Origin: Pseudoscleropodium purum
Taxonomy: Eukaryota; Streptophyta; Bryopsida; Hypnales; Brachytheciaceae
Assembly (NCBI GenBank): GCA_963969395.1
Contig: OZ017797.1
Coordinates: 1,240,001 to 1,304,000, forward strand
DNA: 64,000 nt
Direction of reading: 5' to 3'
The translations under genes were made by a program, and so were the position numbers. Positions 28,360 to 52,437 of the stretch are shown here, piece after piece. The notes beneath the pieces were generated by a model. It made no database searches and was not told the DNA's origin. It saw only the letters and a program-made list of their open reading frames with translations. Each line of letters begins with the position of its first letter. The first letter of the stretch is position 1.

Positions 28360-29380
28360 GGTTAGTGGGACACCGTGAGTGCACATGGCCGATTTCACCG
28401 CAGCCTCAAAAGTGCCCCTGACACTGATAGTCCAACCTTTCTGTAGCTATCTTGGCCAACGCCGTACTCACTCGCATCGCCCCAAGCTCCATCGGCACCG
28501 GCCCTAACGTCCCATGGTTAGCAGAAGGTCTTCCAACTACTTCTCGAGGTATAGAGGTTGGAGTTCTAGAAACGAATGAATCTTGTTGAGGTCGTCGGGC
28601 CTGACGCCGGCCCCATAACCTTTCGTCGATTCGTGATGCCATCACCATCCAATCTTGGAGTCTCCGGGGTTGGCTTTCTACAGTGGCCACGGAGTCCAAA
28701 ACCTCGTCCTTCAATCCTCCCCTAAAACGCGCTATCAAACTAGGTTCATTCCAGTCGAGTTGCGCCACGAGCTCGTTGAAAGTGGAAATATAAGTTGCTA
28801 CCGAGCCAGTCTGACGTAGTCTTCCAATTTTGTCTTCAGCATTACCTCGTCTATCCAAGTCGCCATACACGGCAATGATCGAATCCCGGAAAGCGTTGTA
28901 ATCGATTAATAATTCATACTCCCGTTCCTCATCAAGAGCTTGTAGTAAGGGCATGGCCCAATTCTGAGCGGCCCCGGTCATGTAAGAAAGTGCATATGCC
29001 ACCTTATCCGCATCAGAGTTGTAAGTTCGTGGTTTACCTCAGAAAACTAATCGTAGCTACGCGAACCAACGATACACCTCATTCCCTTTCTTCCCAGAGA
29101 ACTTCTCCGGATCGGCTACTTTTGATTCTCGACCCTCAAAATCAGATTCCCGATGTCTTCCCATTCTAGGATATGCTCGTTCATCTCCCCTGATAGAGGT
29201 TAAAGGAGATCGTTGTCGGGGTATTGCAGCCACTTGCTCGGAAATCTACTGTACCAAATGTGGAATTGCGGATTGGAAGACAGACTGAATCTGCTGCTGG
29301 ATGAATGACGTAAATTCTGCACCCCTAGTTTCCGGCACCGGGGACTCTCCTGGTACTCCATCCAAATGCTCCCGATCCAT
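28360..29380 (-). pseudogene. Ty3 Gag, decayed
   Basis: The start is MDREHLDGVPGES at 29380. The capsid-like core follows: RTYNSDADKVAYALSYMTG, then AAQNWAMPL and WNEPSLIARFRGGLKDEV. A zinc-knuckle remnant CGEIGHVHSRCP sits near 28365-28400. In-frame stops: TAG after HLVQ (about 29252), TAG after RWFA and TGA after LRLVF (about 29035-29055), and TGA just before the knuckle (about 28405). It is not functional. Confidence 0.75.
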
Positions 29381-30541: not shown

Positions 30542-30549
30542 ACTCCATA
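30542..30549. repeat. Left 8-bp target duplication of the hAT transposon (ACTCCATA)
   Basis: Identical to 52430-52437. Eight bp is the length made by hAT transposases. Confidence 0.9.
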
Positions 30550-30680
30550 CAGGGTTGACGAATCTCTACGTCCGCCCCAAAATAGTGTCCGTTCTTCAGA
30601 CGTCCGGACGCTAGCGGACGCAGCGTCCCTCCCGCCGTCGGAAGGCGGACGCGCGGGGCCGGGCGGACGGACGGGGCAGC
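30550..30680. repeat. hAT left terminal region rich in CGGACG
   Basis: After CAGGGTTGAC comes a dense run of GTCCG/CGGAC words in both orientations (ACGTCCGGACG, GCGGACGCAGCGTCC, GGGCGGACGGACGG). Subterminal repeats in hAT elements are transposase-binding sites; that role is inferred here. Confidence 0.75.
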
Positions 30681-32342
30681 TTAGAAAACCTGTTTTGGGT
30701 TTTTTGTTTTGATTGTTTTCACCAATGAGAGATTGAGAGTAAAGTCATTTTGATTTTGATTTTTCTTATATTGCAATTGCGATTCAATAGAGTTGTATAT
30801 CACTATTTATATAAAAGCTAAAATATGAAATATATTTTTAATTTTTTTTGTTGAATTTCATTTTGATTTAGAAACAAAATCACTTTAAAATCCAGCGAAA
30901 TGTATATCATCAATAAACAAACAATTTTATAATAAAATGATTGAAGAAACCATTGTCATTTGTCAACATGAGCTCCATATATCATAAGCAACTCAACAAT
31001 CAAACATCTAAATTCACATCTCCACAATTCCTATGGACGCCAATTGTCGCAGCTTAAAATTTTGATTTTCTTAGTATACACCAAAATAGGAACGGAAACT
31101 AGTCATTAGGGAACCGGATCCGATAAGGTGGAGAAGGAAAACTCAAAATTAGCACGGAATGTGAAGTAGTGGGCCTCTTGGATCTAATCCGGTCAGAAGT
31201 AACTAACGACAAAAACGGAATGCAACACGGATTAGGTCTAGAACCGGATTATGATGGTAAACCGGATTTATGATGACAAACCGGAAAGGGTCCAGGGACT
31301 ATAAAAGGAGGAGCTTTCACTGTTGCACCCCCTTTTAGAAACTCGACCTTGAGCGTGCGCGGTTGAGTTTTTGGCGTTTGTGCGTTTGTGTTCTGTTTGT
31401 TTTGATTCCGGTTGAGAACGGAGAGAGAACGTGAAGAACGGGACATGCGACTAGAAGAGAGTGAGATAGATTGGAGAGGGAATGCCGCCACTACGTAGGT
31501 CTAGACCAGCGAGTCCCTCTGGAGGCGAGGTGAAGCTCCGGAAAGTCATTCCGGTTATTCCCTCTATAGAGCCGGAAAAGTCTCAACTCATGGAGGATCT
31601 CAAATCCATGGGTGGCCTCGGGTTTGCCGAGAAACCTTGGGGTTTTAGGGAGGAGAGAATGGTCAAGGAGCTCCTCGGAAAGCTGTCCAACCAGTTTGAC
31701 AACACCGTGAGAGGAACTCCCGTCAGCTGGAACAAGGGAATGTGGAGAGGGGTTTACGGTTTCCAGGCAGGAGGTTTAGGGATGGTGAACCGGAAGGATG
31801 AGTTTATCCGAAGGAAGTTCCAGGGGGCTGTCAACCCGAAAGACGGATACACGGTCGAGGATTGCATGGATGACCGACACCGTCGGCTTCTGCAATTCCT
31901 GGTTCCGGTGCTTCACCTGGAAAAGCCGACCAGGGAGACGATCACCCTCGGCAACACCATTTTCGGTGCCCTCAGTGGTACTCGGAAAGTGGATTGGGCA
32001 CGGATCATTTCCGATCTCGTGGCCCAGCTCGTTAGTAGGGTTGGGAAGAAAAGGGCCCCTCCAGTGTGCCCTTACCTCTTCCACCTCTATCGAGAACACC
32101 AAGTCCTCACCGACACGGAGGAGAAGGTGTGGAAGACTCAAGAAGTCCTCCTGAAGTATGGGGAGTCGGAAACGGATGATGAGGCCGAATCCGATTTCGG
32201 GTCAGAACGGGAGTCGAGCGAGGACGACGAGGAGCCGATGCCGCCCATCAAGCGACAGAAGTTGACGCCTCTACACAAGCGCGGGACGCCTTCCGGTCAA
32301 GACAGACCGGCCCCGGAAGAGAAACCAGAAGCCGAGAAGACC

Positions 32343-35300
32343 TGTCGCAGCACAGGGCAGGTCAATTCCCCATTATACTCACAAAAATCGCTCTAGAGTA
32401 TAATTAAGTGACTCTAAAGATCGAACCCATGAGATCCTGTGAAGTATCTAGCTCTATTAAGCAGTTAAGCTAAGTCAGTATCCCAATCTTACTTTCCGGT
32501 CCTAGATCTAGAACCAGAAATACCACCACACCGGATAACTACAGACCGGATTACTCCTTCTTCCGATCCTACTTACTATACGGTCCATACAATTACACAA
32601 ATCCCAGGATCTCACAACTTCCGATCCTGGAAATCCTTCCTGACCAATCCGGTCGGGATGGTCATCCTATATCCGTAATCCTATCCGGTTTAGTTTTGCC
32701 TCTGTTTCACCATCAGAGGGGTCACCGCTTAATTTTGAGAGTGGTAGGCCCACCACTCCTTCCGTGACTTATAGTGGCTGAAGACCCACTGCCCTATTTC
32801 CTAAACTCCTAAGCTAATCCGGATCCGGTTTGGTCCTTCACAACAACCCAGATAGCAATCCGGGTTGTAGGTCACACAAAGACCCCACACTCGACCCTCT
32901 CGTACTACAACGACCTTGATGCTACTTCCGATCCGTGCGAAGACAGGTGGTTACAAGTGCACCCGTCCGTTCCAACATCAACTAAAGTTCTTCCGTTACC
33001 CCTACGGGTGGTGAGACCTCACAGGAGATCGGACACTCGACCGGATTTCCCACCCGGGAGTTCTAGCGCAGCTAAGGAATCCCTCCCTACCCGCCTAGCC
33101 TAACAACGGCTTTCTCACTCGGAATCTCAAACTCTAGACGTGCTGAGGAACTAAGTTCACTCCCAACTCTTCGATACCTACTCACATGCACCTTGGATCG
33201 GAAAAGAAACACCAAGGGGAGAAATCACTCGCAAACCAACTCGTACTATCCTAACTCCACATCATACAATCGTGTCGCGTTGGAGAGAGACACACAATGA
33301 AGAGAACAGAAAAGTACAAGAAGTTTGCAAAATGAACAACTCTCAGTTCCCATCTCAGGAACCGATTTATATACAAAGGGTAAAAACCCTAAAAGCACAA
33401 AAAGGAGCGGAAAAACCGTAGGGGTCCGCCGCCATCCTAATCTAACTTCCGGTCTAACCTAATACTGTTGAGCCGGATCCGGATCCAAATCCACTCCTAC
33501 TCCTAACTGAAATCCAAAATCCTATCTACCCTACAACTCTAGATCCTATTGTCGGGCTTCCGATCTCCGGGACTAGCTCCTCAAAGACTTCACTCAAATT
33601 CCGGACCCGTTCCCCCTCCGCAAGATTAGATACGGGTGGAGACTCCAGGTCGATGGTGATATCCGGTCTCGTGCCCGGAGTCCCAGTCCGTGCAGACTTC
33701 TTGGACTCCGGAATCCAATCCTTCCTATCCTTCGGAATGGTTGCGTCCGGAAAGATATCCGGTAGCGAGATGTCCGAAAGATGTATGCCCTTGGAGGACG
33801 TCGCTCTAGTCAGCTTCCGGCTGCTATCCTCAATCCGGTCCGCAGCCTTCCGCCCCTCCACCATTGCCGTCTCCACCTACTCAGCGAAGTCCGCGAGAAT
33901 CCGGACCATCCGGGAACCGGATAGTTTCTTCTCTTCGTGGATCTTCTCGTCGAAGAGCTTCGCTTTGGCGGCGGCCGTTCTGGTTTCTCCAAGGGTCGCC
34001 TTGATTCGCTCGGCTATCTTCCGAGTTTCCTTCGCCATCTCTCGGGTGGCCGTCACGTCTTCCCGATAGGCAAAAAGAGTTGCCTTCAGGTTATCCACCT
34101 CCTCCTACAACCGGCGGATCTCTGCTTCTTGTTTCCGGGTATCTTCCGGATTGGTGATGCACTCCGCCACCTTTTCCGCCAACTTGCTGTCCGGTGGCGC
34201 ACCTACCAACTTTCCGATCGCCGCAAGCGTCCTGTGCTTGACCTCCCAATCCGCCCTGATGTTGCACAGGACGTTGATAAGACCGTTGAACGGATCTTGC
34301 ATTTCCGGGTCTCCCCCGGAAACGGTCTTCTCGGCTTCCGATTTCTCTGCCGGGGCCGGTCTGTCTTGACCGGGAGGCGTCCCGCGCTTGTGTGGAGGCG
34401 TCAACTTCTGTCGCTTGATCGGCGGCATCGGCTCCTCCTCTTCCTCGCTCGACTCCCGTTCTGACTCGGAATCGGATTCGGCCTCATCATCCGTTTCCAA
34501 CTCCCCATACTTCAGGAGGACTTCTTGAGTCTTCCACACCTTCTCCTCCGTGTCGGTGAGGACTTGGTGTTCTCGATAGAGGTGGAAGAGGTAAGGGCAC
34601 ACTGGAGGGGCCCTTTTCTTCCCAACCCTACTAACGAGCTGGGCCACGAGATCGGAAATGATCCGTGCCCAATCCACTTTCCAGGTACCACTGAGGGCAC
34701 CGAAAATGGTGTTGCCGAGGGTGATCGTCACCCTGGTCGGCTTTTCCAGGTGAAGCACCAGAACCAGGAATTGCAGGAGCCAACGGTGTCGGTCATCCAA
34801 GCAATCCTCGACCGCGTATCCGTCCTTCGGGTTGACGGCTCCCTGGAACTTCCCTCGGACAAACTCATCCTTCCGGTTCGCCATCCCTAAACCTCCTGCT
34901 CGGAAACCGTAAACCGCTCTCCACATCCCCTCGTTCTAGCTGACGGGAGTTCCTCTCACGGTGTTGTCAAACTGGTTGGACAGCTTTCCGAGGAGCTCCT
35001 TGACCATTCTCTCCTCCCTAAAACCCCAAGGTTTCTCGGCAAACCCGAGGCCACCCATGGATTTGAGATCCTCCATGAGTTGAGACTTTTCCGGTTCTGT
35101 GGAGGGAATAACCGGAATGACTTTCCGGAGCTTCACCTCGCCTCCAGAGGGACTCGCTGGTCTAGACCTACGTAGCGGCGGCATTCCCTCTCTAATCTAT
35201 CTCACTCTCTCCTAGCCGCATGTCCCGTTCTTCACGTTCTCTCTCCGATCTCAACCGGAATCAAAACAAACAGAACACAAACGCACAAACGCCAAAAACT

Positions 35301-35640
35301 CAACCGCGCACGCTCAAGGTCGAGTTTCTAAAAGGGGGTGCAACAGTGAAAGCTCCTCCTTTTATAGTCCCTGGACCCTTTTCGGTTTGTCATCATGAAT
35401 CCGTTTTACCATCATAATCCGGTTCATCATCATAATCCGGTCCTAGACCTAATCCGTGTTGCATTCCGTTTCCGTCATTAGTTACTTCTGACCGGATTAG
35501 ATCCAAGAGGCCCACTACTTCACATTCCGTGCTAATTTTGAGTTTTCCTTCTCCACCTTATCGGATCCGGTTCCCTAATGACTAGTTTCCGTTCCTATTT
35601 TGGTGTATACTAAAAAAAATCAAAATTTTAAGCTGCGACA
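32343..35640 (-). mobile_element. 3.28-kb TGTCGCAGC element, copy E (complete), nested in D
   Basis: Ends TGTCGCAGCACAGGG/AAGCTGCGACA with the perfect duplication AGACC (32338-32342 and 35641-35645). It is 3298 bp long, antisense to D, and almost identical to D, sharing subfamily markers such as the GGGAACCGGATCCGATAAGG stretch at its promoter end. Confidence 0.93.
33526..35184 (-). pseudogene. Element-encoded coiled-coil protein of copy E, three TAGs
   Basis: 1659-nt frame from MPPLRRSRPAS with TAG at 34936-34938 (Trp in D and F), 34105-34107 and 33877-33879 (both Gln in F). The two Gln sites are also TAG in copy D. No indel and no TAA or TGA was found. Confidence 0.8.
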
Positions 35641-36528
35641 AGACCGTTTCCGGGGGAGACCCGGAAATGCAAGATCCGTTCAACGGTCTTATCAACGTCC
35701 TGTGCAACATCAGGGCGGATTGGGAGGTCAAGCACAGGACGCTTGCGGCGATCGGAAAGTTGGTAGGTGCGCCACCGGACAGCAAGTTGGCGGAAAAGGT
35801 GGCGGAGTGCATCACCAATCCGGAAGATACCCGGAAACAAGAAGCAGAGATCCGCCGGTTGTAGGAGGAGGTGGATAACCTGAAGGCAACTCTTTTTGCC
35901 TATCGGGAAGACGTGACGGCCACCCGAGAGATGGCGAAGGAAACTCGGAAGATAGCCGAGCGAATCAAGGCGACCCTTGGAGAAACCAGAACGGCCGCCG
36001 CCAAAGCGAAGCTCTTCGACGAGAAGATCCACGAAGAGAAGAAACTATCCGGTTCCCGGATGGTCCGGATTCTCGCGGACTTCGCTGAGTAGGTGGAGAC
36101 GGCAATGGTGGAGGGGCGGAAGGCTGCGGACCGGATTGAGGATAGCAGCCGGAAGCTGACTAGAGCGACGTCCTCCAAGGGCATACATCTTTCGGACATC
36201 TCGCTACCGGATATCTTTCCGGACGCAACCATTCCGAAGGATAGGTGTCGCAGCTTAGAATTTTGATTTTCTTAGTATACACCAAAATAGGAACGGAAAC
36301 TAGTCATTAGCAAACCGGATCCGATTAGGTGGGAAAGGAAAACTCAGAATTAGCACGGAACGTGAAGTAGTGGGCTTCTTAGATCCAATCCGGTCAGGAG
36401 TAAGTAACGACGGAAACGGAATGCAACACGGATTAGGTCTAGGACCGGATGATGATGATGAACCGGATTATGATGGTAAACCGGATTCATGATGACAAAC
36501 CGGAAATGGTCCAGGGACTATAAAAGGA

Positions 36529-36537
36529 GGAGCTTTC
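36529..36537 (+). promoter_or_regulatory. TATA box of the element gene (copy F)
   Basis: TATAAAAGG stands 150 bp before the ATG and is conserved in D, E and G (B and C have TATATAG). CCAGGGAC precedes it, and a transcript start would be expected near GCTTTCACTGTTGC about 25 bp downstream. Confidence 0.65.
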
Positions 36538-36678
36538 ACTGTTGCACCCCCTTTTAGAAACTCGACCTTGAGCGTGCGCGGTTGAGTTTTTGTCTGTTCT
36601 GCTTCCGGTTGAGATCGGAGAGAGGAAGTGAGGAACGGGACGTGCGGCTAGGAGAGAGTGAGGTAGATGTGAGTGGGA

Positions 36679-38337
36679 ATGCCTCAGCTACGTAGGTCGA
36701 GGCAAGCGAGTCCCTCTGGAGGCGAGGTGAAGCTCCGGAAAGTCATTCCGGTTATTCCCTCCACAGAGCCGGAAAAGGCTGAACTCATGGATGATCTCAG
36801 ATCCATGGGTTGCGTAGGGTTTGCCGAGAAACCTTGGGGTTTTAGGGAGGAGAGAATGGTCAAGGAGCTCCTCGGAAAGCTGTCCAACCAGTTTGACAAC
36901 ACCGTGAGGGGAGCTCCCGTCAGCTGGAACGAGGGGATGTGGAGAGCGGTTTACGGTTTCCGGGCAGGAGGTTTGGGAATGGCGAGCCGGAAGGATGAGT
37001 TTGTCCGAGGGAAGTTCAAGGGAGCCGTCAACCCGAAGGACGGATACGCGGTCGAGGATTGCTTGGATGACCGACACCGTCGGCTCCTACAATTCCTGGT
37101 TCCGGTTCTTCACCCGGAGAAGCCGACCAGGGTGACGATCACCCTCGGCAACACCATTTTCGGTGCCCTCAGTGGTACCCGGAAAGTGGACTGGGCACGG
37201 ATCATTTCCGATCTCGTGGCCCAGCTTGTTAGTAGGGTTGGGAAGAAAAGGGCCACTCCAGTGTGCCCTTACCTCTTCCACCTCTATCGGGAGAACCAAG
37301 TCCTCACCAACATAGAGGAGAAGGCATGGAAGACGCAGGAAGTGCTGCTGAAGTATGGGGAGTCGGAGACGGATGACGAAGCGGAATCCGATTCCGAGTC
37401 AGACCGGGAGTCCAGCGAGGAAGAGGAGGAGTTGATGCCGCCGATCAAGCGACAGAAGCTGACGCCTCCACACAAGCGCGGGACGCCTCCCGGTCAAGAC
37501 AAACCGGCCCCGGAAGAGAAACCGGAAGCCGAGAAGACCAATTCCGGGGGAGATCCGGATATGCAAGATCCGTTCAACGGTCTGATCAACGTCCTCTGCA
37601 ACATCAGGGCGGATTGGGAGGTCAAGCACAAGACGCTTGCGGCAATCGGCAAGTTGGTGGGTGCTGCACCGGACAGCAACTTGGCGGAACAAGTGGCGCA
37701 ATGCATCACGAATCCGGAAGAGACCCGGAAGCAGGAAGCAGAGATCCGCCGGTTGCAGGAGGAGGTAGATAGACTGAAGGCAACACTTTTCGCCTATCAG
37801 GAAGACGTGACTGCCGCTCGGGAGATGGCAGAGGAGACTCGGAAGGTGGCCGAGCAGATCAAGGCGGTCCTGGGAGAGACCGGAACGGCAGCGGCCAAGG
37901 CGAAGCTCTTCGACGAGAAGATCCACGAAGAGAAGAAACTATCCGGTTCCCGGATGGTCCGGATTCTCGCGGACTTCGCCGAGCAGGTGGAGACGGCAAT
38001 GGTGGAGGGGCGGAAGGCTGCGGACCGGATCGAGGAGAGCAGCCGGAAGCTGACGGGAGCGACGTGCGACAAAGGTATTCACCTTTCGGACATCTCTCTA
38101 CCGGACCTCTTTCCGGATGCAACTATGGCGAAGGACAGGAAGGATTGGACTCCTGAGTCCAAAAAGTCTGCACGGACTGGGACTCCGGGCTCGAGACCGG
38201 ATATTACCATCGACTTGGAGTCTCCACCCGGACCGAATCCTGCGGAGGGGGAACGGGTCCGGAATTTGAGTGAAGTTTTCGAGGAGCTAGTCCCGGAGGT
38301 CGGAAGCCCGACGATAGGATCTAGAGTTGTAGGGTAG
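36679..38337 (+). CDS. Element-encoded protein with putative-transposon-protein-like region and coiled coil, 552 aa, intact
   Basis: This is the only uninterrupted copy of the family's gene. The start is the ATG at 36679 (MPQLRRSRQAS); a GTG two codons earlier is in frame. Order: basic N-terminus (1-35); conserved block with GFAEKPWGFREERM and LSNQFDNTVRG (45-85); FRAGGLGM and GKFKGAVNPKDGY (95-125); LGNTIFGALSGTRKVDW then ARIISDLV and CPYLFHLYRENQVL (about 155-215), resembling in layout a domain found in plant ORFs called putative plant transposon protein; an acidic Ser/Asp/Glu tract (230-260); a long coiled coil rich in Glu, Lys and Ala (about 350-460); and a Pro/Ser-rich tail. No zinc knuckle, protease, polymerase, DDE motif or helicase is seen. 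A Gag-like or DNA-binding structural role is an inference; the true function is unknown. Confidence 0.7.
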   Translation: MPQLRRSRQASPSGGEVKLRKVIPVIPSTEPEKAELMDDLRSMGCVGFAEKPWGFREERMVKELLGKLSNQFDNTVRGAPVSWNEGMWRAVYGFRAGGLGMASRKDEFVRGKFKGAVNPKDGYAVEDCLDDRHRRLLQFLVPVLHPEKPTRVTITLGNTIFGALSGTRKVDWARIISDLVAQLVSRVGKKRATPVCPYLFHLYRENQVLTNIEEKAWKTQEVLLKYGESETDDEAESDSESDRESSEEEEELMPPIKRQKLTPPHKRGTPPGQDKPAPEEKPEAEKTNSGGDPDMQDPFNGLINVLCNIRADWEVKHKTLAAIGKLVGAAPDSNLAEQVAQCITNPEETRKQEAEIRRLQEEVDRLKATLFAYQEDVTAAREMAEETRKVAEQIKAVLGETGTAAAKAKLFDEKIHEEKKLSGSRMVRILADFAEQVETAMVEGRKAADRIEESSRKLTGATCDKGIHLSDISLPDLFPDATMAKDRKDWTPESKKSARTGTPGSRPDITIDLESPPGPNPAEGERVRNLSEVFEELVPEVGSPTIGSRVVG

Positions 38338-39385
38338 ATAGGATTTTAATTTCAGTTAGGAGTAGGAGCGGATCCGGATCCGGATCCGGCTCAATAGTAT
38401 TAGGTTAGACCGGAAGTTAGATTTAGGTGGCGGCGGACCCCCACGGGTTTTCCGCTCCTTTTTGTGCTTTTAGGGTTTTGACCCTTTGTATATAAATCGG
38501 TTCCTGAGATGGGAATTGGGAGTTGTTCATTTTGCAAACTTCTTGTACCTTTCTATTCTCTTCGTTGTGTATCTCTCTCCAGCGCGACAGGATTGTATGA
38601 TGTGGAGTTAGGATAGTACGAGTTAGTTTGTAAGTGATTTCTCCCCTTGGTGTTTATTTTCCGATCCAAGGTGCATGTGAGTAGGTACCGAAGAGTTGGG
38701 AGTGAACTTAGTTCCTCAGCACGTCTAGAGTTTGAGATTCCGGGTGAGAAAGCCGTTGTTAGGCTAGGCGGGTAGGGAGGGATTCCTTAGCTGCGCTAGA
38801 ACTCCCGGGTGGGAAATCCGGTCGAGTGTCCGATCTCCTGTGAGGTCTCACCACCTGTATGGGTAACGGAAGAACTTTAGTTGATGTTGGAACGGACGGG
38901 TGCACTTGTAACCACCTGTCTTCGCACGGATCGGAAGTAGCATCAAGGTCGTTGTAGTACGAGAGGGTCGAGTGTGGGGTCTTTGTGTGACCTACGACCC
39001 GGATTGCTATCTGGGTTGTTGTGAAGGACCAAACCGGATCCGGATTAGCTTAGGAGTTTAGGAAGTAGGACAGTGGGTCTTCAGCCACTATAAGTCACGG
39101 AAGGAGTGGTGGGCCTACCACTCTCAAAATTAAGCGGCGACCCCTCTGATGGTGAAACAGAGGCAAAACCAAACCGGATAGGATTACGAGTACAGGATGA
39201 CCATTCCGACCGGATTGGTCAGGACGGATTTCCAGGATCGGAAGTTGTGAGATCCTGGGATTTCGGTATTTGTACGAACCGGATAGTTAGTAGGACCGGA
39301 AGCACGGAGAAATCCGGTCTATAGTTATCCGGTGTGGTGGTATTTCTGGTTCTAGATCTAGGACCGGAAAGTAAGATTGGGATAC

Positions 39386-39454
39386 TGACTGAGCTTAACT
39401 GCTTAATAGAGCTAGATACTTCACAGGATCTCGTGGGTTCGATCTTTAGAGTCA
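39386..39454 (+). other. tRNA-like sequence near the 3' end of the element (copy F)
   Basis: A 69-nt segment can fold like a degenerate tRNA. TGACT pairs with AGTCA at the ends, AGCT (39392-39395) with AGCT (39410-39413) as a D arm, AGAT (39414) with ATCT (39428) as an anticodon arm, and GGTTCGATC (39436-39444) matches the polymerase III B box and T loop. The anticodon arm has one nucleotide too many and the T stem relies on G-T pairs. The segment is conserved in copies B, C, D, E and G. A true tRNA gene is unlikely; a tRNA-derived promoter, primer or recognition structure is possible. Confidence 0.5.
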
Positions 39455-40453
39455 CTTAGTTATACTCTAGAGCGATTTTTGTGAGTATAATGGGGAATTG
39501 ACCTGCCCTGTGCTGCGACAATAGGAAGGATTGGATTCCGGAGTCCAAGAAGTCTGCACGGACTGGGACTCCGGGCACGAGACCGGATATCACCATCGAC
39601 CTGGAGTCTCCACCCGTATCTAATCTTGCGGAGGGGGAACGGGTCCGGAATTTGAGTGAAGTCTTTGAGGAGCTAGTCCCGGAGATCGGAAGCCCGACAA
39701 TAGGATCTAGAGTTGTAGGGTAGATAGGATTTTGGATTTCAGTTAGGAGTAGGAGCGGATTTGGATCCGGATCCGGCTCAACAGTATTAGGTTAGACCGG
39801 AAGTTAGATTAGGATTGTAGCGGACCCCCACGGGTTTTCCGCTCCTTTTTGTGCTTTTAGGGTTTTTACCCTTTGTATATAAATCGGTTCCTGAGATGGG
39901 AACTGGGAGTCTTCATTTTGCAAATTTCTTGTACCTTTCTATTCTCCTCATTGTGTGTCTCTCTCCAGCGCGACACGATTGTATGATGTGGAGTTAGGAT
40001 AGTACGAGTTGGTTTGCGAGTGATTTCTCCCCTTGGTGTTTCTTTTCCGATCCAAGGTGCATATGAGTAGGTATCGAAGAGTTGGGAGTGAACTTAGTTC
40101 CTCAGCACGTCTAGAGTTTGAGATTCTGAGTGAGAAAGCCGTTGTTAGGCTAGGCGGGTAGGGAGGGATTCCTTAGCTGCGCTAGAACTCCCGGGTGGGA
40201 AATCCGGTCGAGTGTCCGATCTCCTGTGAGGTCTCACCACCCGTAGGGGTAACGGAAGAACTTTAGTTGATGTTGGAACGGACGGGTGCACTTGTAACCA
40301 CCTGTCTTCGCACGGATCGGAAGTAGCATCAAGGTCGTTGTAGTACGAGAGGGTCGAGTGTGGGGTCTTTGTGTGACCTACAACCCGGATTGCTATCTGG
40401 GTTGTTGTGAAGGACCAAACCGGATCCGGATTAGCTTAGGCGTTTAGAAAGTA

Positions 40454-42694
40454 TGTCGCAGCACAGGGCAGGTCAATTCCCCATTATACTCACAAAAATC
40501 GCTCTAAAGTATAACTAAGTGACTCTAAAGATCGAACCCACGAGATCCTGTGAAGTATCTAGCTCTATTAAGCAGTTAAGCTAAGTCAGTATCCCAATCT
40601 TACTTTCCGGTCCTAGATCTAGAACCAGAAATACTACCACACCGGATAACTACAGACCGGATTACTCCTTCTTCCGGTCCTACTAACTATTCAGTCCGTA
40701 CAAATACCCAAATCCCAAGATCTCACAACTTCCGATCCTGGAAATCCGTCCTGACCAATCCGGTCGGGATGGTCATCCTGTACTCGTAATCCTATCCGGT
40801 TTGGTTTTGCCTCTGTTTCACCATCAGAGGGGTCGCCGCTTAATTTTGAGAGTGGTAGGCCCACCACTCCTTCCGTGACTTATAGTGGCTGAAGACCCAC
40901 TGTCCTACCTTCTAGACTCCTAAGCTAATCCGGATCCGGTTTGGTCCTTCACAACAACCCAGATAGCAATCCGGGTCGTAGGTCACACAAAGACCCCACA
41001 CTCGATCCTCTCGTACTACAACGACCTTGATGCTACTTCCGATCCGTGCGAAGACAGGTGGTTACAAGTGCACCCGTCCGTTCCAACATCAACTAAAGTT
41101 CTTCCGTTACCCATACGGGTGGTGAGACCTCACAGGAGATCGGACACTCGACCGGATTTCCCACCCGGGAGTTCTAGCGCAGCTAAGGAATCCCTCCCTA
41201 CCCGCCTAGCCTAACAACGGCTTTCTCACCCGGAATCTCAAACTCTAGACGTGCTGAGGAACTAAGTTCACTCCCAACTCTTCGGTACCTACTCACATGC
41301 ACCTTGGATCGGAAAATAAACACCAAGGGGAGAAATCACTTACAAACTAACTCGTACTATCCTAACTCCACATCATACAATCCTGTCGCGCTGGAGAGAG
41401 ATACACAACGAAGAGAATAGAAAGGTACAAGAAGTTTGCAAAATGAACAACTCCCAATTCCCATCTCAGGAACCGATTTATATACAAAGGGTCAAAACCC
41501 TAAAAGCACAAAAAGGAGCGGAAAACCCGTGGGGGTCCGCCGCCACCTAAATCTAACTTCCGGTCTAACCTAATACTATTGAGCCGGATCCGGATCCGGA
41601 TCCGCTCCTACTCCTAACTGAAATTAAAATCCTATCTACCCTACAACTCTAGATCCTATCGTCGGGCTTCCGACCTCCGGGACTAGCTCCTCGAAAACTT
41701 CACTCAAATTCCGGACCCGTTCCCCCTCCGCAGGATTCGGTCCGGGTGGAGACTCCAAGTCGATGGTAATATCCGGTCTCGAGCCCGGAGTCCCAGTCCG
41801 TGCAGACTTTTTGGACTCAGGAGTCCAATCCTTCCTGTCCTTCGCCATAGTTGCATCCGGAAAGAGGTCCGGTAGAGAGATGTCCGAAAGGTGAATACCT
41901 TTGTCGCACGTCGCTCCCGTCAGCTTCCGGCTGCTCTCCTCGATCCGGTCCGCTGCCTTCCGCCCCTCCACCATTGCCTCGTTCCAGCTGACGGGAGCTC
42001 CCCTCACGGTGTTGTCAAACTGGTTGGACAACTTTCCGAGGAGCTCCTTGACCATTCTCTCCTCCCTAAAACCCCAAGGTTTCTCGGCAAACCCTACGCA
42101 ACCCATGGATCTGAGATCATCCATGAGTTCAGCCTTTTCCGGCTCTGTGGAGGGAATAACCGGAATGACTTTTCGGAGCTTCACCTCGCCTCCAGAGGGA
42201 CTCGCTTGCCTCGACCTACGTAGCTGAGGCATTCCCACTCACATCTACCTCACTCTCTCCTAGCCGCACGTCCCGTTCCTCACTTCCTCTCTCCGATCTC
42301 AACCGGAAGCAGAACAGACAAAACACAAACGCACAGACGCACAAACGACAAAAACTCAACCGCGCACGCTCAAGGTCGAGTTTCTAAAAGGGGGTGCAAC
42401 AGTGAAAGCTCCTCCTTTTATAGTCCCTGGACCCTTTCCGGTTTGTCATCATGAATCCGGTTTACCATCATAATCCGGTTCATCATCATCATCCGTTCCT
42501 AGACCTAATCCGGGTTACATTCCGTTTCCGTCGTTAGTTACTCCTGACCGGATTAGATCCAAGAGGCCCACTACTTCACTTCCGTGCTAATTCTGAGTTT
42601 TCATTCCCCACCTAATCGGATGTGGTTAGCTAATGACTAGTTTCCGTTCCTATTTGGGTGTATACTAAGAAAATCAAAATTCTAAGCTGCGACA
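40454..42694 (-). mobile_element. 3.28-kb TGTCGCAGC element, copy G, internal deletion derivative, nested in D
   Basis: Both terminal sequences are intact, with the perfect duplication AAGTA (40449-40453 and 42695-42699). The length is 2241 bp because about 1.06 kb of the gene is missing. The rest is nearly identical to copy F, so it is young. Confidence 0.93.
41636..42232 (-). pseudogene. Deleted form of the element protein (copy G), 198 aa in frame
   Basis: The ATG is at 42232 (MPQLRRSRQAS). The first 83 codons, to PVSWNEA, are fused in frame to MVEGRKAADRIEESSRK, so the central domain and most of the coiled coil are lost. The junction has about 2 bp of microhomology (GG). The frame remains open to the normal stop. 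Confidence 0.8.
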
Positions 42695-45600
42695 AAGTAG
42701 GACAATGGGTCTTCAGCCACTATAAGTCACGGAAGGAGTGGTGGGCCTACCACTCTCAAATGTAAGCGGCGACCCCTCTGATGGTGAAACAGAGGCAAAA
42801 CCAAACCGGATAGGATTACGGATACAGGATGACCATCCTGACCGGATTGGTCAGGAAGGATTTCCAAGATCGGAAGTTGTGAGATCCTAGGATTTGGGTA
42901 ATTGTATGGACCGGATAGTAAGTAGGACCGGAAGAAGGAGTAATCCGGTCTGTAGTTATCCGGTGTGGTGGTATTTCTGGTTCTAGATCTAGGACCGGAA
43001 AGTAAGATTGGGATACTGACTGAGCTTAACTACTTAATAGAGCTAGATACTTCACAGGATCTCGTGGGTTCGATCTTTAGAGTCACTTAGTTATACTCTA
43101 GAGCGATTTTTGTGAGTATAATGGGGAATTGACCTGCCCTGTGCTGCGACACCAATCCACATCTCTTCTAACCTCAGCCCCACTACTTTCTCCTGCAGCT
43201 CTCCGTTCAAAATCTTCATTATCGGAGTCATCTTCATTGTCGGAGTCATCTTCATTGTTGGAATCAAGTTTCGTTGTCTCCTTCAAGTCTTCTCTCGAAG
43301 TAGGTTTACTCCCTTTTTTCGAATTTAATTTTTCTTTTTTTACTTTGACAGAACGATTAAAGGCTTTTTGAATAGGAACCTTTCTTTTCTTTCTATTTGA
43401 CAAAGTAGCAACATTTTCATCAAGAGGGGTCCTATTCTTTACTGGAGAGATAGCAAAAGGTTGAATTTCTCTTTTCGCTTTCACGTTACTCGATTCTTGA
43501 ACCATCAATCTCGATGTAGGGTCGACATATCCATGAACGGTTATCTCCACTTTGGCTTTCTTTTGAAGTAATAGAGTGCCGTTTGTTGATTTGATCGGTT
43601 CTTGCGTCATTCCTTTTGCTAAAATGTGAGCACGCAAAGATGCCAATGGCATCCGATCACTATCCGTATCACTTAGGCTTGTAGGTGATGACGCTACTTT
43701 CCGTAGATTACCGCCTGTAGAAATTTCTTTGGAAATGTTCATTAGGCGTTTTCCATATCCAAAGCTCTGAGAATCATTCAATCGTGTGCTAACAGACTTC
43801 AACGGTATTGGTGGAAGAGCACTAGATCTTGATACTTCAAAAATTGACTTCATTGGCTCCTTTCCTTTATCACTCTTCACAATTGCCGAATTTGTGACTG
43901 CCATCCCAAGTGAATCATTATTTTTTTGTACCGCAATATTTGGTTCCCCCTCATCACCACTATTGTTGCCCACATCTTTTGAAACGTCCACCTCCATGAC
44001 CACATCTTCTCTTTTGTTGTTTCCTTGCACTACATTTAATGCCACAGATGGAGATTGAGAAATTAAAACTTCTTCATTTCTCCCATCATCACCAATAGCA
44101 TTCTCATTGATTTTCACCTCTTTGGCAATAGCGTTTGCCTTTTCCGATAGAATGTTTTTGCTATTCAAGAATCCCATTCCATTGCAATATACAGTTAAAG
44201 AAGGTAGATTCTCCTGTACCTCTACATTGTCCTCGTCTTCACAAAAGGTATATGCATCGTTTGCATTGTCGGGAACGACATCCTTGCGGTTTAGATGATA
44301 ATCATGCGTATCATTCACCAAATCGGGAAAGCCTTCCATAACGTCTTCATCTCCCCATGCTGTCGTACGATTGAAGTCATCTCCACCATCTACAGCTGAA
44401 AGGGCCCTTTCCAAATCCTTGTCATCATCGTCATCATCGTCTTCTAACGTCGGTCTATCTGAATCCTTTGATTCCATCAGATCCACATTATCATTATACC
44501 ATTTTTTTCATCTTTTTCCTTCGATGCGTTTAATACTTTGGAATTGGTATACACGTACACCAAATCCGCTGCTCTCTCCGGCTTCAATTTATTTCGAGAT
44601 TTGTTGTGAACAAAAAAATAGTTGCTCCAATTCTGTTCACATGAAGATGATGACACCGGTTGAGCCAATATCCTCTTCGCTAATAGAGCTATAAACTTGC
44701 CACATGCACCTTCAAAATCCCACCAAGCATATGCGGACAACATTTGATCTCCCGGATTCAACATATTGTGGAATGGAGGTTCCTTGTGTCGAAAAGCTAC
44801 AAATTCCTTCACCACTGCTGTATATTCATCCGGTTTACATATTCTCTCCAAAACTTTCTTACATCTTGACATTGCATCTGCATCATCCGCTAGCTCTTTG
44901 TCATGAAGAAGGTATGGATTCAAAAGAGCTGCGGCTGATTGGAGATCGTTGTCCACCATTCTTCTTCGAGTATAAAAAGACTGTACCAATGGAATTGCAA
45001 GTTCTTCTAGCAAACAAAATGGTGGACTTTGTAATCCGTTCACGTGCTTCTCTAACTTCCTCATCATATGCAACACCTTCCCCATGCATGGTGATTTTGA
45101 ATCCAAATCCCGAAGTGCACATATGATTGGTTCAACCATCTTCACATAATTGATGGACCGATTTCAAAAATGGTCATCAAGAACAATTTTCTTCACCGCT
45201 AAAGCCAAGTCTTTTGGTTGAACTTTAGCTCCACGTTTCTTCTTGAGAGTATGTACATACTCAACCCATTGCGGATCTACCACCGTTTGTTCCAATGCTC
45301 CTCTCAATTTTGTCAAATGCTTCATCATGATAAATTTAGAGGCGAACCTTGTATCCCCAGGCATCAAGAGACCAAGATTTGGCGAATACTTTCGCAATAG
45401 AGCTAGCGGCATATTTCTCTTCCTGATAAATTTAGCTACAAGAACTCCTTTATCCAATTTGGAAGCAATCCATTTCTGTGCAGCCCAATCCTTCAACAAC
45501 AAATTCAATGCATGTACCACGCACCCTTGGTAAAAAATATGAGGATATTTTGCAGATATTACATTCCATGCGGACGGATTCACGGGAGCATTATTCGTAG

Positions 45601-46799
45601 TTATTAACACGACGTTCTTGGACCCCACTTGTTCAATGAACTTTTCCAACACAGCTGCCAAGTACTCCGCATTTTTTTCACAACCACTTGTATCCACAGA
45701 TCCAAGAAATTCTTCACCTACGGATAATACAAGCATGGCATTGATGAGAGGTCGATTAGTCACGGAGCTCCATCCATCAATGGACAATGTTGCTCCAAAT
45801 TTTTGAATGCTATCTTCAGTCCGTGCATTCAACTGTGTCTGAATGTTGGTCTTCGCCTCATTCAACAATTTGTACCGAAGGTCGTGGTATGAGGGAGGAA
45901 TGTATGGCCTACCGAACGCAGCTGTTTTCTTCACTGCTTCTTTAAAAGCTGGATTTCGAGCCACGGAAAATGGTATGTTCGCCGAATAAAAAAAATTTGC
46001 CCACACTGAATGTAATTTGCGTCTATGACCTTCTTCAAACCCATTCACTAAGCTCCCTTGCCTCTGAGGCCTAGAACTTGATGCCCTCGGGGTTTCACGT
46101 TCACCAGAAGCTTCCGTACTCAAAGTCATTTCAGTTGTGGCACATACCATTGATACCAATTCTTTGGACGCTGGACAAGAGTCTTCGTGGTCAGAATGCG
46201 ACACAGCCTTTCCGGCCGAAAACTCTTGGACATCTGAAGGGCCAAGGTTGCCATCCACATTGTCCATTACAACGCGTTTTGGAAAAACTCCTTTGCAATG
46301 CCAAAATAAATCTCGAACTGCCATTGATAATCGTGGACAAAGGCTCACCCCTTTATCACGTACACCTTCAGGCCCAGAATAGCCTAAGTGGCTGAACATA
46401 CGGCTGAGTTTCCTTGACATGCTCGCTTTGCAAAGCCTACATTTTACTTTACCACCCTCTTGCACACTAAACCAAGGAGAAAAATCCCCCGTTGGTTTGG
46501 CCACCATACTGACAAGTGTATGTTTTACCTCAATTTCAAAAGAAACCAATAGAATGTTTTCAATTTGAAACCCACAACGTGACAATGTATACAATATCAA
46601 TGAAATTAGTTACACAAAGCTTTGAAAATCAAAGCCCCTCCGTCCACCGAACTATGCATTACCAAGCAAGAGACTCAATAAATTGAAGCTCATAGCCCTT
46701 GGAAATCTTAGCGTTCGGTTTTTCGAGAGTGAATACCAAAGCTTCTCTTCTAACATTTATAGTCCCCTTCAGAAAATTAAAGGTTCATTTTTAGGGTTT

Positions 46800-47040
46800 C
46801 CATTCAAAAACATGAAACGGCCCGGACAGGGCTGAAGCGGACGGGCGGATGGGGGCGAGCGGACCGGTCGGACGGGTCGGACAGGGCGGGCGGACGGGTC
46901 AGACGAGCGGACGCGGCGGACGGGGCGGTCGGACGGGACTATCCGCACTGTCCGCCTTTCGACGCCGTCCGCGCTTTGGACACACCGACCGCCCCACTTA
47001 AATACTGACCGCCGACGACGTCCGCCCAGCTGTCCATTGG
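46800..47040. promoter_or_regulatory. CGGACG-rich block upstream of the hAT transposase
   Basis: About 240 bp of dense GGGCGGACGG/GACGGGTCGG words, GC-rich inside an AT-rich surrounding, about 300 bp upstream of the transposase ATG. The same words fill the element's ends. It is probably the promoter and a possible transposase-binding region; this is inference from position and repetition. Confidence 0.6.
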
Positions 47041-47045
47041 AGCAT

Positions 47046-48960
47046 TCTAAGAGGTCGATATTACTCAAAAAGAGCGGTAACATTTCAAAAAAAACAGCCT
47101 AATAATCACTGCTAAATGAGAATCAATGTAATTGATTTATCATTTTATTTTTAAAAAAAATGTAAACCCTAAATCCTATACCCTAATTACCCTAAACCTT
47201 TACCTTTCTCCCCTAAATTGTTTTACGAATGAGGGGAATGTGGTTAAGTTAAATACGTTTGGATTATTTACTCATATTATCCTTCTAAATAGGTTTTGAA
47301 AAGATCTGAAGATGGTGGGGGTTTTTTTAAAGTTCATTAGGAAATCAAATGTTTTGCAGAAATAATCAATTCCTTTTTCATCATAAGCAAATGAAAATTT
47401 AAAAAAAGACCCCAATACATAATTAGAATAACAGTTTAATGGATTTCAACCTCATGATATTTAATGAAAGGTTGTGTTTTCTAATTAGAAGTGCATCACG
47501 ATCTTCAAATGAACATTGAGTCTTTCATATTTTTTAATGAAATTTTGATTAGATTTGAAAACAAAGAAAAAGAATCAATGTTTTAACTTTCAAATTATAT
47601 ATGGCTATATTTTTCCTTAAAAACATAGAAAAATTCGTTACTTGAGTTGATTGAGTAGAATACATTATACACTTATACATGTGCTATATTTATTTTGAAG
47701 GGTAATTCCAATATTCTTATTTCAAATGTTTTTAAATATTAATTTAAAAAAAAAAAGGGTTCATTGTTTAAAGATCTAAAAAATTGACAAACATAATTTC
47801 TATTATAAATAGGAATTGAATTCGGGATTCGAATTTTGAAATGATTCAAATGAACAAGATATTGATTATAAAATATTTCTTTGTTTGAGTTTTCAAAATG
47901 AATTCACGAAACAATTGCAAACTTTTGAACTTAGGTATATGATATTGTTTTTGGTTTGTACTTTGTAGAGTATAATACTTCAATTTTAATCCTAAATAAA
48001 TGAAAAAATTCCACATGAATGAAATGTTTCTATGTATTGCACAAAGATTTCTACCAATTACTATGATAATTAAATACATTGTTACATTTCATAAAATATT
48101 CTACATAGAAAGAAAAAATCATTTTAGTTTTCAATCATGATAAACGATGTCTTCTACTCTTTCTGTTATATGTTCGTTTTGTATAACGTGTACATTGTAC
48201 AATCTTTGAGAGCAGGGAAGTTCATTTTTGACTCTCATTGAAATAGAAAATATATTTGTGTTTGGATTTTGAAATCATTATCTCATTATGTATTCTACGG
48301 TCTTGCAAGAATGCATCTTGCTCCTTCTTTTGAATCCTTTTGATATTTTTTTTTTTTCCTTTGCTTTCTCATAGGGCTCTTGTTCTCTTGTTCTCTTCAT
48401 TTGACCAGCCTATTTGGCTTGGCTCTTAGTTTTTGTTTTTTTTAATGCAATGGTTTATGCATATGTTATAAAAAATATATATTATTTATTTAAAATTAAT
48501 ATATTGATGAACAAACGCATAAAAGCATTGAATGCTTTCACATTTAAAGTTATAAATCTATCATAAATCACTCTTGCAAATTTGAATGATTGAATCGAAA
48601 ATTTGAAAATGTAATTACAAGAGCTTTCAATTCAATCAATTGCATAAATCATAAATGTTGAAATGCAACTCGTATGAGTTTAGCATCTATGAAGATTAAT
48701 TCATGCCATCCACATGCAATTTTCCAATTTAATAAAATGCAATTGAGTACTTCAATTTCTTTCTTTTCAATTCTCCAAGTAACATTCACTTCATATCTTT
48801 CTCTATTTGTTTATTTAATTTTTGGGAACAAATGGAGAAACCATCTTTGTCTATATTTGCACATGCACTCTTATTTGATTGATGAAGAATAGATCTATGA
48901 AATATATAATCATTGATTTGTTCATGTTGATTTATCTAATATATTTTATATATGTATATA

Positions 48961-49057
<97 letters not shown>

Positions 49058-49905
49058 TTAAAGGAGTATGGAAGACAAGATTGACAGATTGTGTTCAAAT
49101 GTTGTTGATTTTGAAATGATTTAGTACTATATCATTTATAAGAATATTATAATAGTATTATGTTCTAATATTCCTAAAACAATTGCAACAAATATTAAAA
49201 TACATGCTAAGTTAGGTTTGTTAGCCTACCAATTGTTCATTAATAGACATAATTGAGTAGCCCCCTTAAATGAAACACTCAATATCTAATATCTTACAAT
49301 CCAAATGGTGGATTTGTCTAAAATTTGTTCCACATCTTTTCCAACTAATTTACTACAAGATCCTACGGTTACATATGCCCAAAAGTATTTTTCTTCCAAG
49401 ACTTGGTATTTGCACTACTACTGGCAGTTTTGAAGTGTTTTTAGTGAAAAGAACTTTAGAGGTTAAACATCTATACCATGAGATTTTGAAAAAAGAACAA
49501 TTTGCTTCATTGGGGATAACTATAAGTCCATGCTCTTTTTCGATAGCCAAAACACACTTGCAAGGACTTGGACATTTAGCGGTTCACTAAGTGATTAGAC
49601 GTCAACTAATTCAATTTCATAGTAGAATTTTTATTCAACTACCTTCTTACAATTGCTTTATACACAATGCAATGTGAATATTTGGATACATATATTAAAC
49701 GTCGCAATCCTTTCGTGAATTTTTGCACATTTTAGCTCATATCTTTGTACAAAAATATCATTTACCAAGAATTCATAAATTTGGTCATAAAGGAAGGCTA
49801 CCTTTTTTAATTTCAAATTTTACAATGAATAAATGAAAAGTTAGTTGAACTATACAGTGCCATGAAGACCTCTGTTTATTGTGCAAAATATGGGTTTAGG
49901 GTCGC
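47046..49905. other. AT-rich spacer between the two hAT genes
   Basis: About 2.9 kb with no credible coding frame; short frames such as 49270-49590 show no family. It contains a long TA microsatellite and separates the divergent promoters of the transposase and kinase-like genes. Confidence 0.5.
48945..49056. repeat. (TA)n microsatellite
   Basis: An almost pure TA run of about 100 bp. It would extrude as a cruciform easily and is prone to length change. Confidence 0.95.
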
Positions 49906-49917
49906 TTTAGGGTCAAA

Positions 49918-50195
49918 CCACCCCGTCCGCCCAGACCTCGTCCGCCCCGATACCTGTCCGCCTTCCGCCCTGTCCGCCCCATCCGCCCCAATACCCGTCC
50001 GCCCTGTCCTCCATCCGCCCTGTCCGTCGGATCCGGCGTCCGCCCTGACCGCCCCGTCCGCCCCGTTACGGCGATACGTCCGCCCCCCTGGACCGTCCGA
50101 TTGGGCGGACGGGGCTCTAGGGTTTCGGGGAGGCGGACGGCCGATGCGTCCGCCACCCCCGGCCCATCTGATCGGGCGGATGGTTTAGGGCCGTC
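49918..50195. promoter_or_regulatory. GTCCGCC-rich block upstream of the kinase-like gene
   Basis: About 280 bp of CCGTCCGCCC/GGGCGGACGG words, ending about 200 bp before the ATG at 50394. It mirrors the block upstream of the transposase, giving each of the two divergent genes its own copy. Confidence 0.6.
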
Positions 50196-50393
50196 CGCAT
50201 TGTCACTTTTGCTTTGTCCCTTGCGAATGCAAGGTGGAGCGGAGAGCTTGGTGGTTCATACTCCATTGGCTCCTTTCCGAGGCAAGGCAAGAGTGATTTA
50301 TTGGGGCCTCCTTGTTGCCAATTTTTTGGACACTTGCGCGTGAATTCAATTTCAAATTAAAAAATTTGATCTATATCAATTTCATTTGTCACG

Positions 50394-51887
50394 ATGACGA
50401 AGGGGAAGAAGAAGGTTGCGAAGCTAAAACATGGAGAGGGACCATCAAACTTGGAGGTAGCTCGTCAAAGTCCTTCGGAGGAATACAAAAAATTCATGAT
50501 CGAGCGCATCGTTGAATTTTATGAATCGGAAACAACATTGTCTTTAGACAATAAGTACATCAGATATCAAGAGGAGTGCGTGTCTAAATTCAAGGTAGAC
50601 ATGACACAGATGTTGTTGGATGCATTGAATGTGGCGAAGTGGCATGACGAAATGCATAAAACGTACTTCACCAAATGTTTGGAGAACAAGGTTCATGACG
50701 CTTTGTGGAATTCCAAAGTCATTTTGGTTAAATATGGCAAGGAATATCGACCCAATGACGCCCAGTTTGAAGAAGTGATTCTGAAAGCGGACTTATTTAG
50801 AGGGCGATGTGCTCCATTCGCCAAAACGCACAATCGAGTTGGTTCAATTGGTTGGTGGAAAAGCAATGATGGAGTTGCTGAAGCGGAAAGGAACAAACGG
50901 CACCTCATAGCACTTCCAGATATAGCACGCGTGATTGCTGTTGATGATAGAACGATGAGAGGTGGATATGCAACGATTCGAAAGGTTCGTATTGAAGGAT
51001 GTCTAGGAATACTTCCGTATTGGGAGTTTGCGGCAAAGAAATCCATTCACCACCAAACTCGACCCGATCTTGCAAAGCTAGAACATCAAAACGAATCAAT
51101 GGCTGTTCGAAATCCACACGCGGGTGTGATACGGTTTGCTGCGGTGCATGGAACGACGTGTGAAGGTTATGTGTATTGGTGGAATGGTGGAACTCTTCGA
51201 CAAATGTTGAATATGGATAAGGACTTTCCAGACAACATTCAAATCCATTTGATGTATACGAATCCAACCGAAGAGGAGGTTGTAAAAGCTCACCATTTAG
51301 AACGATATCGGAAGAAGCGCACGGAGTTGACATGGGCGTTTATGCATATAATGTATGCAGTGCATCTTGCTGGACATTTGCACAATGATCTTTCTCCGGA
51401 CAACATCTTGTTGCATTTTCCAGAGGATGAGTCACGTGTGTACATTGGAGTTTGCGATTGGGGCATGACCACCTTAGCTTCTCAACCAATGAAGTCTTTG
51501 TATACATTTACATCAGCAAATGAGATGAAACAGACTTTGCAGAGGAGATGGTGGGTGGATCCACGTATTGCATATTTGCATAAAGCAGGTGCAGATGTGG
51601 AAGTCATTCCAATGTATTCACGTAAGTCGAAAGAGTATGCTATTCGAAAAATTGCTCGGCGGATGAATGGAAACAACATGTCAGAGGCGTATTTCAACGT
51701 GCTACGAAAAACACCTAGTGCGACACAATTTGCCTTTCATGACTTTGCAAAAGTGTTTTATACTTATTTGAAGCGCATTTCTTCGAAGACTAACGATGAA
51801 AATACTAGTTTGGCCCATGTGATTACGCGATTTTCTAATATATATCGTTGGCCGATGCCAGATGAACATTTCCGCCATTTATATTAG
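50394..51887 (+). CDS. Protein-kinase-like cargo gene of the hAT element, 497 aa
   Basis: A single intact exon from ATG at 50394 to TAG. Residues 1-180 are a helical, charged N-terminal region with no recognised family. The C-terminal 310 residues show kinase landmarks in order: GGYATIRKVRI as a glycine-loop-like strand (about 190), EFAAKKSIH with the ATP-binding Lys (about 216), a possible helix-C Glu in LAKLEHQNES (about 231-235), HNDLSPDNILLHF as the catalytic loop (about 330) and CDWG in place of DFG (about 355). Then comes QRRWWVDPRIAYL, near where an APE region would lie. The loop has Asn where RD kinases have Arg, but the catalytic Asp, Asn and metal-binding Asp are present, so activity is possible. 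The gene is divergent from the transposase and inside its terminal repeats. Atypical kinase-like ORFs occur in some eukaryotic repeats; the role here is unknown. Confidence 0.75.
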   Translation: MTKGKKKVAKLKHGEGPSNLEVARQSPSEEYKKFMIERIVEFYESETTLSLDNKYIRYQEECVSKFKVDMTQMLLDALNVAKWHDEMHKTYFTKCLENKVHDALWNSKVILVKYGKEYRPNDAQFEEVILKADLFRGRCAPFAKTHNRVGSIGWWKSNDGVAEAERNKRHLIALPDIARVIAVDDRTMRGGYATIRKVRIEGCLGILPYWEFAAKKSIHHQTRPDLAKLEHQNESMAVRNPHAGVIRFAAVHGTTCEGYVYWWNGGTLRQMLNMDKDFPDNIQIHLMYTNPTEEEVVKAHHLERYRKKRTELTWAFMHIMYAVHLAGHLHNDLSPDNILLHFPEDESRVYIGVCDWGMTTLASQPMKSLYTFTSANEMKQTLQRRWWVDPRIAYLHKAGADVEVIPMYSRKSKEYAIRKIARRMNGNNMSEAYFNVLRKTPSATQFAFHDFAKVFYTYLKRISSKTNDENTSLAHVITRFSNIYRWPMPDEHFRHLY

Positions 51888-52225
51888 ATTGGTAGTGCAG
51901 AAGTAGTAGTTGAATAGGTTATATAGGCATTAAAAATTAGTTTAGAAATATAGAGTTGGAATGAAAAAAATTATATGTGCAATTAGCCAAATGTGCACAA
52001 TATATGGTATTCTACATTAAATTGAATACATTTTGCCCATATTGATTATGTTTGTATTTGTATTGATCTCGATTTTTTAAATAGTATATATATATATTTG
52101 AAGTCACAAACTTTTTTAGTTTGCCTTCTGAAAATGAATTGGAATTTTTTCATAGTTTCAAGACTATCATGGACTCATGGTCAAACTTTATAATCTTTTA
52201 AATTGTTTAAAGATTAAGGGAGTGA
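51888..52225. other. 3' flank of the kinase-like gene
   Basis: AT-rich sequence with TATATATATA at 52086; no gene seen. It probably contains the polyadenylation region. Confidence 0.4.
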
Positions 52226-52429
52226 CCGCGGGGCAGTTTGGGTAGGGCAGTCGGGGGAAATAGGGCCGTCAAAGCGGACGGGGCAGATGGGCGGGGCGAA
52301 CGGGGTGACAAGCGGACGGGGCGGTCCCAATGAACGCTGCGTCCGCGGGGACCGCGAATGTCAGCGGACGCTGCGGACACAGCGTCCGCGTCCAGACGTC
52401 CCGGACGTCCGGACGTCGTGTCAACCCTG
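52226..52429. repeat. hAT right terminal region rich in CGGACG
   Basis: Dense GCGGACGGGGC, GGACGTCCGGACGTC words lead to the terminal GTCAACCCTG. This is the mirror image of the left end in word content, but beyond the first 10 bp the two ends are not aligned base for base. Confidence 0.75.
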
Positions 52430-52437
52430 ACTCCATA
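52430..52437. repeat. Right 8-bp target duplication of the hAT transposon (ACTCCATA)
   Basis: Identical to 30542-30549. Confidence 0.9.

Follow-up and report, generated by a model that had tools for sequence, protein, structure and literature searches.

What gives this stretch of moss DNA its interest is a single question: can a cut-and-paste transposon own a protein kinase? The window analyzed, 64,000 nucleotides of Pseudoscleropodium purum (contig OZ017797.1), contains a hAT element that encloses both a transposase gene and a kinase-like gene, whereas hAT elements are, to our knowledge, regarded as one-gene transposons. We read the locus as a decayed copy of a plant two-gene hAT family, probably one of mosses, whose resident genes are a divergently transcribed transposase and a protein kinase, and we put the probability of this reading at about 0.78. 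Rather than having been captured by chance, the kinase probably belongs to the resident genes of this family, a finding that points to jumping genes that may bring a kinase of their own. If true, cut-and-paste elements with a resident, conserved kinase would control themselves or manipulate their host in a new way, and the limiting or licensing of a transposon would become directly testable, probably in mosses.

The element and its two genes

A preliminary description of the locus, made from the letters alone, had proposed that inverted ends and a perfect 8-bp duplication surround a hAT transposase on the minus strand and a kinase-like frame on the plus strand, and we confirmed this arrangement at 30550-52429 (Table 1). 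The end motif CAGGGTTGAC has two exact matches in the window, which are the two ends of the element, and a third match with one mismatch. The duplicated 8-mer, ACTCCATA, occurs four times in the window against 1.6 expected; it is not rare by itself, and it is telling because of its place against both ends. The 8-bp duplication beside short inverted ends assigns the element to the hAT superfamily. While these bounds held, the proposed size of 21.9 kb did not, as 12.1 kb of it consists of nested insertions. Without this pile and one copy of its duplication the element measures 9,768 bp, about 9.8 kb. The pile occupies more than half of the span and makes up most of its left half. When we removed it and joined the flanks, the transposase tail ran to a stop soon past the insertion point, so the pile landed just within the 3' end of the transposase gene.

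One hAT transposase, with its start ATG at 46507, can be read from three minus-strand frames (46609-45164, 45163-44477 and 44507-43098). The first frame carries DUF659 (Pfam, E 4.8e-32), the second the hAT dimerisation domain PF05699 (E 6.2e-9, 36 bits over a cut-off of 21.4), which supports its membership, and the third is the low-complexity tail. The two breaks between the frames, at about 45163 and 44507, both lie in or beside homopolymer runs and, given these runs, could be assembly errors. We then compared the columns which we take, from known hAT motifs, to be the catalytic ones. Among the 24 close relatives, the first is Asp in 23 (one gap), the second Asp in 23 (one gap) and the third Glu in 23 (one Lys). 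The transposase of this copy has Asn in place of the second presumed catalytic Asp, and Gln in place of the Arg that follows the Glu in 24/24 relatives.

The structural model of the kinase-like protein consists of a helical N-terminal part (residues ~1-160) and a kinase fold (~162-497), which places it among the kinases with phosphotransfer as a predicted activity. Tyr and Tyr-kinase-like kinases, such as FGFR2, EGFR, RIPK2 and IRAK4, head the list of fold matches at 10-19% identity, and residues 1-160 fall outside the listed matches. As in eukaryotic protein kinases, the fold and the catalytic residues are present; unlike them, the hAT kinase has HND for HRD, DWG for DFG and the added helical N-terminal part. 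Among viral kinases, BFVD returned general kinase-fold matches only (8-18% identity).

Clusters of CGTCCGC-type repeats lie at both ends of the element and upstream of each gene, including the upstream block of its own that the preliminary description had ascribed to the kinase. Each cluster was compared with 500 dinucleotide shuffles. GTCCG, CGTCCG and GTCCGC were enriched in all four blocks (0/500 shuffles each); CCGTCCG was weaker at the ends, where 4 and 10 of 500 shuffles reached the observed count, and GTCCGCC is missing from the right-end block. The window contains 146 copies of GTCCG, with 46 in nested elements, 52 outside the hAT and five within it but outside the blocks. As the motif is frequent also in nested elements and outside the hAT, its clustering, and not its presence, is what is telling.

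A further link came from the relatives of the two genes. The longest contigs of transposase relative P0075 and kinase relative P0037 measure 27,639 bases each, and the chance of one such match among 9 x 7 long contigs is 6e-4 under a rough log-uniform assumption. We assign the kinase to the hAT because it lies inside the duplication, because the motif clusters connect it with the ends and the transposase, because of this contig coincidence, and because its leader resembles the N-terminal extension of P0013 and, weakly, that of P0010. The N-terminal extensions of two further kinases, P0053 and P0015 (of four tried), had no convincing match at the leader, and those of transposases P0075, P0084 and P0086 gave no convincing match.

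Relatives of the kinase and the transposase

The kinase has 71 relatives, two of which bear the name Ceratodon purpureus, a moss and the sole plant name among the rows; one of these moss rows represents 126 sequences. In an alignment of 40 rows (the window copy and 39 relatives), the catalytic Lys, Glu, Asp and Asn and the metal-binding Asp are each present in 40/40, across 23-73% identity to the window copy. Even among the distant rows P0051-P0064 (25-36% identity), the 11 of 14 that were aligned keep the catalytic residues. The profile search that the preliminary description had called for gave a divided answer: 39 of the 40 members match Pfam Pkinase at E <= 0.01, but the window copy scores 21.6 bits against a cut-off of 31.7.

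No kinase relatives were found among plasmids, or among IMG/VR viral contigs with a single-sequence query. With an alignment query, 47 IMG/VR stretches fit a pattern; in the prokaryote genome collection, 16 and 228 stretches did. None of these stretches encodes a kinase relative. Because the prokaryote searches gave no relative, the label 'Bacilli bacterium' of P0002 probably marks eukaryotic DNA in a bin.

The transposase search returned 35 relatives, 24 of them close (P0065-P0088) and 11 distant (P0089-P0099). Counted with the pattern SG[AV]E[VI]x[GDR]DxD[YWF] (an earlier, narrower one gave fewer), a tail motif, commonly SGAEVKGDSDY, stands 2-14 residues before the end of 20/24 close transposases and in 0/11 distant ones. 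Three of the four misses (P0065, P0075 and P0081) have no such motif in their listed ends; the fourth, P0088, carries a less strict version, SGEVPGDSDF, at a greater distance from its end. The seed-plant DUF659 hAT proteins (Cryptomeria P0090, Diospyros P0096, Salix P0098 and P0099) fall within the distant rows that lack the motif. They share DUF659 and, for the most part, the dimerisation domain, with 23-32% identity along a portion of the protein, and we know of no kinase partner for them.

In the model of P0066, a relative of the window copy, the fold is held in the first ~665 residues, and most of the remaining tail has a predicted local distance difference test (pLDDT) score below 40. The last ~13 residues form the highest-scoring block of the tail, at 63, and a short helix near 951-960 scores 58. 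All 12 Foldseek matches of this model with E <= 0.001 are Hermes (E 2e-13), and a profile comparison also hits Hermes (E 4e-4), consistent with a Hermes-like fold. A kept short motif that closes a tail modeled as disordered looks like a docking or modification site.

The element resembles other members of the hAT superfamily (Hermes, Ac and Kat1) in its 8-bp duplication, in a transposase with a BED-like N-terminus, DUF659 and the dimerisation domain, and in a short motif repeated near the ends, which, as in Ac, are of the CAGGG type. Unlike these three, it adds a kinase-like gene, its end motif also occurs upstream of both genes, and its close transposase relatives are long-tailed, most with a conserved terminal motif. 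Hermes has short subterminal repeats near its ends, bound by BED domains (PMC10368747), and Kat1 has a repeated short motif near its ends and a DDE motif in its transposase (PMC4763223). The literature searched (titles and the starts of abstracts, in a collection with a minority of subscription papers and without bioRxiv preprints) contained no hAT element with a kinase and no such element in Ceratodon.

Decay of this copy and the possible role of the kinase

The preliminary description had set the open kinase frame against the breaks of the transposase, a contrast that could be read as a sign of selection. To score drift, we counted leave-one-out departures from otherwise invariant positions in 29 kinase rows (the window copy with its 28 closer relatives out of 39) and 25 transposase rows. 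The window kinase departs at 4/65 positions, the third highest of its 29 rows after P0013 (6/67) and P0036 (5/66, with a changed catalytic-loop His), and the commonest count is 1. The window transposase departs at 8/117, second of 25 rows after P0088 (16/124), with a commonest count of 0. The branch of the window kinase measures 0.24, roughly double the lengths for its nearest relatives, P0001 (0.12) and P0002 (0.11). Two breaks per 1,117 transposase codons predict 0.9 in the 497 codons of the kinase, so zero breaks are unremarkable (Poisson probability ~0.4). Thus, the kinase is intact in having an open frame and all catalytic residues, but not at four of the 65 positions that its closer relatives keep; drift is seen in the transposase and the kinase alike, the contrast between them fails, and this copy gives no evidence for selection on the kinase. 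The wider proposal of a stable, functional cargo keeps the support of the element's bounds, of a conserved family with multi-copy members and of the kinase's upstream block, and loses that of the open frame.

The drift of the kinase weighs against a two-gene family, and several other observations do so as well. No other complete copy of the element came to light, and at E 1e-3 the remainder of the window contains no further hAT piece. The name Ceratodon is absent among the 35 transposase rows. Placing P0075 and P0037 on one contig extrapolates from a single coincidence in tables that carry no genomic context, and the contigs of the other 8 of the 9 unnamed kinase rows above 10 kb are not matched in length by any of the 35 transposase rows. 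Finally, the motif blocks had been picked by eye before the shuffles were run.

Could the kinase have come from elsewhere? As in Pack-type elements, a kinase gene of the host may have been taken up by a single hAT copy and have no role in it; the one complete element in the window and the drifting kinase frame would fit such a capture. We consider it improbable, given 71 relatives with Ceratodon as the sole plant name (few rows are named), 126 sequences behind one moss row, the motif shared upstream of both genes and a transposase relative on an equal-sized contig. Still less probable is that the kinase sits in an element of its own that inserted into the hAT. Other such insertions are present in the hAT, and a long AT-rich stretch separates the transposase and kinase blocks, but the kinase motif block matches the hAT ends, and no second long inverted-end pair surrounds 47100-52400 among the 25 longest of 65 pairs (arms of at least 40 bases), although short ends are possible. 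The retention of catalytic residues across 23-73% identity would also suit a cargo that confers a trait on the plant and is retained through host-level selection. This too seems improbable, as the drifting copies (the window copy and P0036) in multi-copy clusters resemble those of a transposon and not one maintained host gene.

For a two-gene hAT family, we hypothesize that the element would move by the usual hAT cut-and-paste, with its transposase binding CGTCCGC repeats at the ends and, probably, those upstream of the transposase and kinase genes, which would put the two genes under joint control. The kinase would work for the element and not for the host. Its most likely job, judged from the sequences and held tentatively, would be to phosphorylate the element's own transposase and so to switch or limit transposition; the tail motif makes the transposase a candidate partner. 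A more specific prediction, which we regard as rather speculative, is that the dedicated kinase of this hAT clade docks via SGAEVKGDSDY and phosphorylates the disordered tail, a phospho-switch that would license or cap transposition. Alternatively, the kinase may act on the host, countering silencing or altering repair or the cell cycle in the element's favor. VANDAL elements, which are Mutator-like and not hAT, provide a parallel. In Arabidopsis, they carry their own anti-silencing gene, VANC, and their target motifs are often tandem repeats (PMC5735166). They resemble the present element as plant transposons with an extra gene and repeated motifs clustered in non-coding parts, and differ from it in that VANC is an anti-silencing protein and not a kinase (PMC5735166). 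The precedent and the clustered motifs favor a host target, but sequence evidence on such a target is nil and the tail motif points to the transposase as a closer candidate. We rank a host-acting kinase as the next likely job, a little behind phosphorylation of the transposase.

Nested insertions and other features of the window

The nested pile was built by a family with TGTCGCAGC/GCTGCGACA ends, whose single copies span ~2.2-3.3 kb, make 5-bp duplications and insert into their own copies. As the sequence behind one end is unlike that behind the other, long terminal repeats are not evident. The only open reading frame (ORF) of the family that was tested, at 36673-38337 (554 residues), has no Pfam match over its cut-off.

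Table 1 Coordinates of the hAT element, its genes and motif blocks, and the nested family
Feature	Positions	Strand	Remarks
Target-site duplication ACTCCATA, left copy	30542-30549		Directly outside left end
hAT terminal inverted repeat, left, CAGGGTTGAC	30550-30559	+	Exact motif match
Left subterminal block, CGTCCGC-type repeats	30560-30700		GTCCG x8 in 30550-30700; reached by 0/500 shuffles
Later nested pile, ends TGTCGCAGC...GCTGCGACA	31045-43151		Duplication CCAAT (5 bp); not original hAT
Inner nested element, TGTCGCAGC/GCTGCGACA family	32343-35640	-	Duplication AGACC
Inner nested element, TGTCGCAGC/GCTGCGACA family	36246-39520	+	Duplication ATAGG; ORF 36673-38337
Inner nested element, TGTCGCAGC/GCTGCGACA family	40454-42694	-	Duplication AAGTA
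hAT transposase gene	43152-46507	-	Degenerate BED finger, DUF659, hAT dimerisation domain, long low-complexity tail
Transposase C-terminal motif SSGAEVRRDVDW	43152-43187	-	Counterpart of relatives' SGAEVKGDSDY
Block upstream of transposase, CGTCCGC-type	46800-47060		GTCCG x12; reached by 0/500 shuffles
Block upstream of kinase, CGTCCGC-type	49890-50220		GTCCG x14; reached by 0/500 shuffles
Kinase leader	50238-50327	+	Resembles N-terminal extension of P0013 (E 1.3e-4), weakly P0010 (E 0.06)
Kinase-like gene, single open frame	50394-51887	+	497 codons without a stop; 497 residues
Right subterminal block, CGTCCGC-type repeats	52220-52419		GTCCG x9 in 52220-52429; reached by 0/500 shuffles
hAT terminal inverted repeat, right, GTCAACCCTG	52420-52429	-	Exact motif match
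Target-site duplication ACTCCATA, right copy	52430-52437		Directly outside right end
TGTCGCAGC/GCTGCGACA element outside hAT	7613-10892		Duplication ACTAC
TGTCGCAGC/GCTGCGACA element outside hAT	20919-24191		Duplication GATAC

Another TGTCGCAGC-family end, at 235, overlaps the 3' end of an 817-residue open frame with DUF7869 (231-2684, minus strand, E 2.1e-42). Two neighboring long frames of 506 and 456 residues (17359-20322, plus strand) have no Pfam match at E 0.01. A Ty3-type retrotransposon remnant with gag and aspartyl protease pieces lies at 27414-29038 on the minus strand, and short interstitial telomere repeats of the plant type (TTTAGGG) at 16122-16169. The window also has a POT/PTR2 transporter gene and an NLI-interacting-factor-like phosphatase frame.

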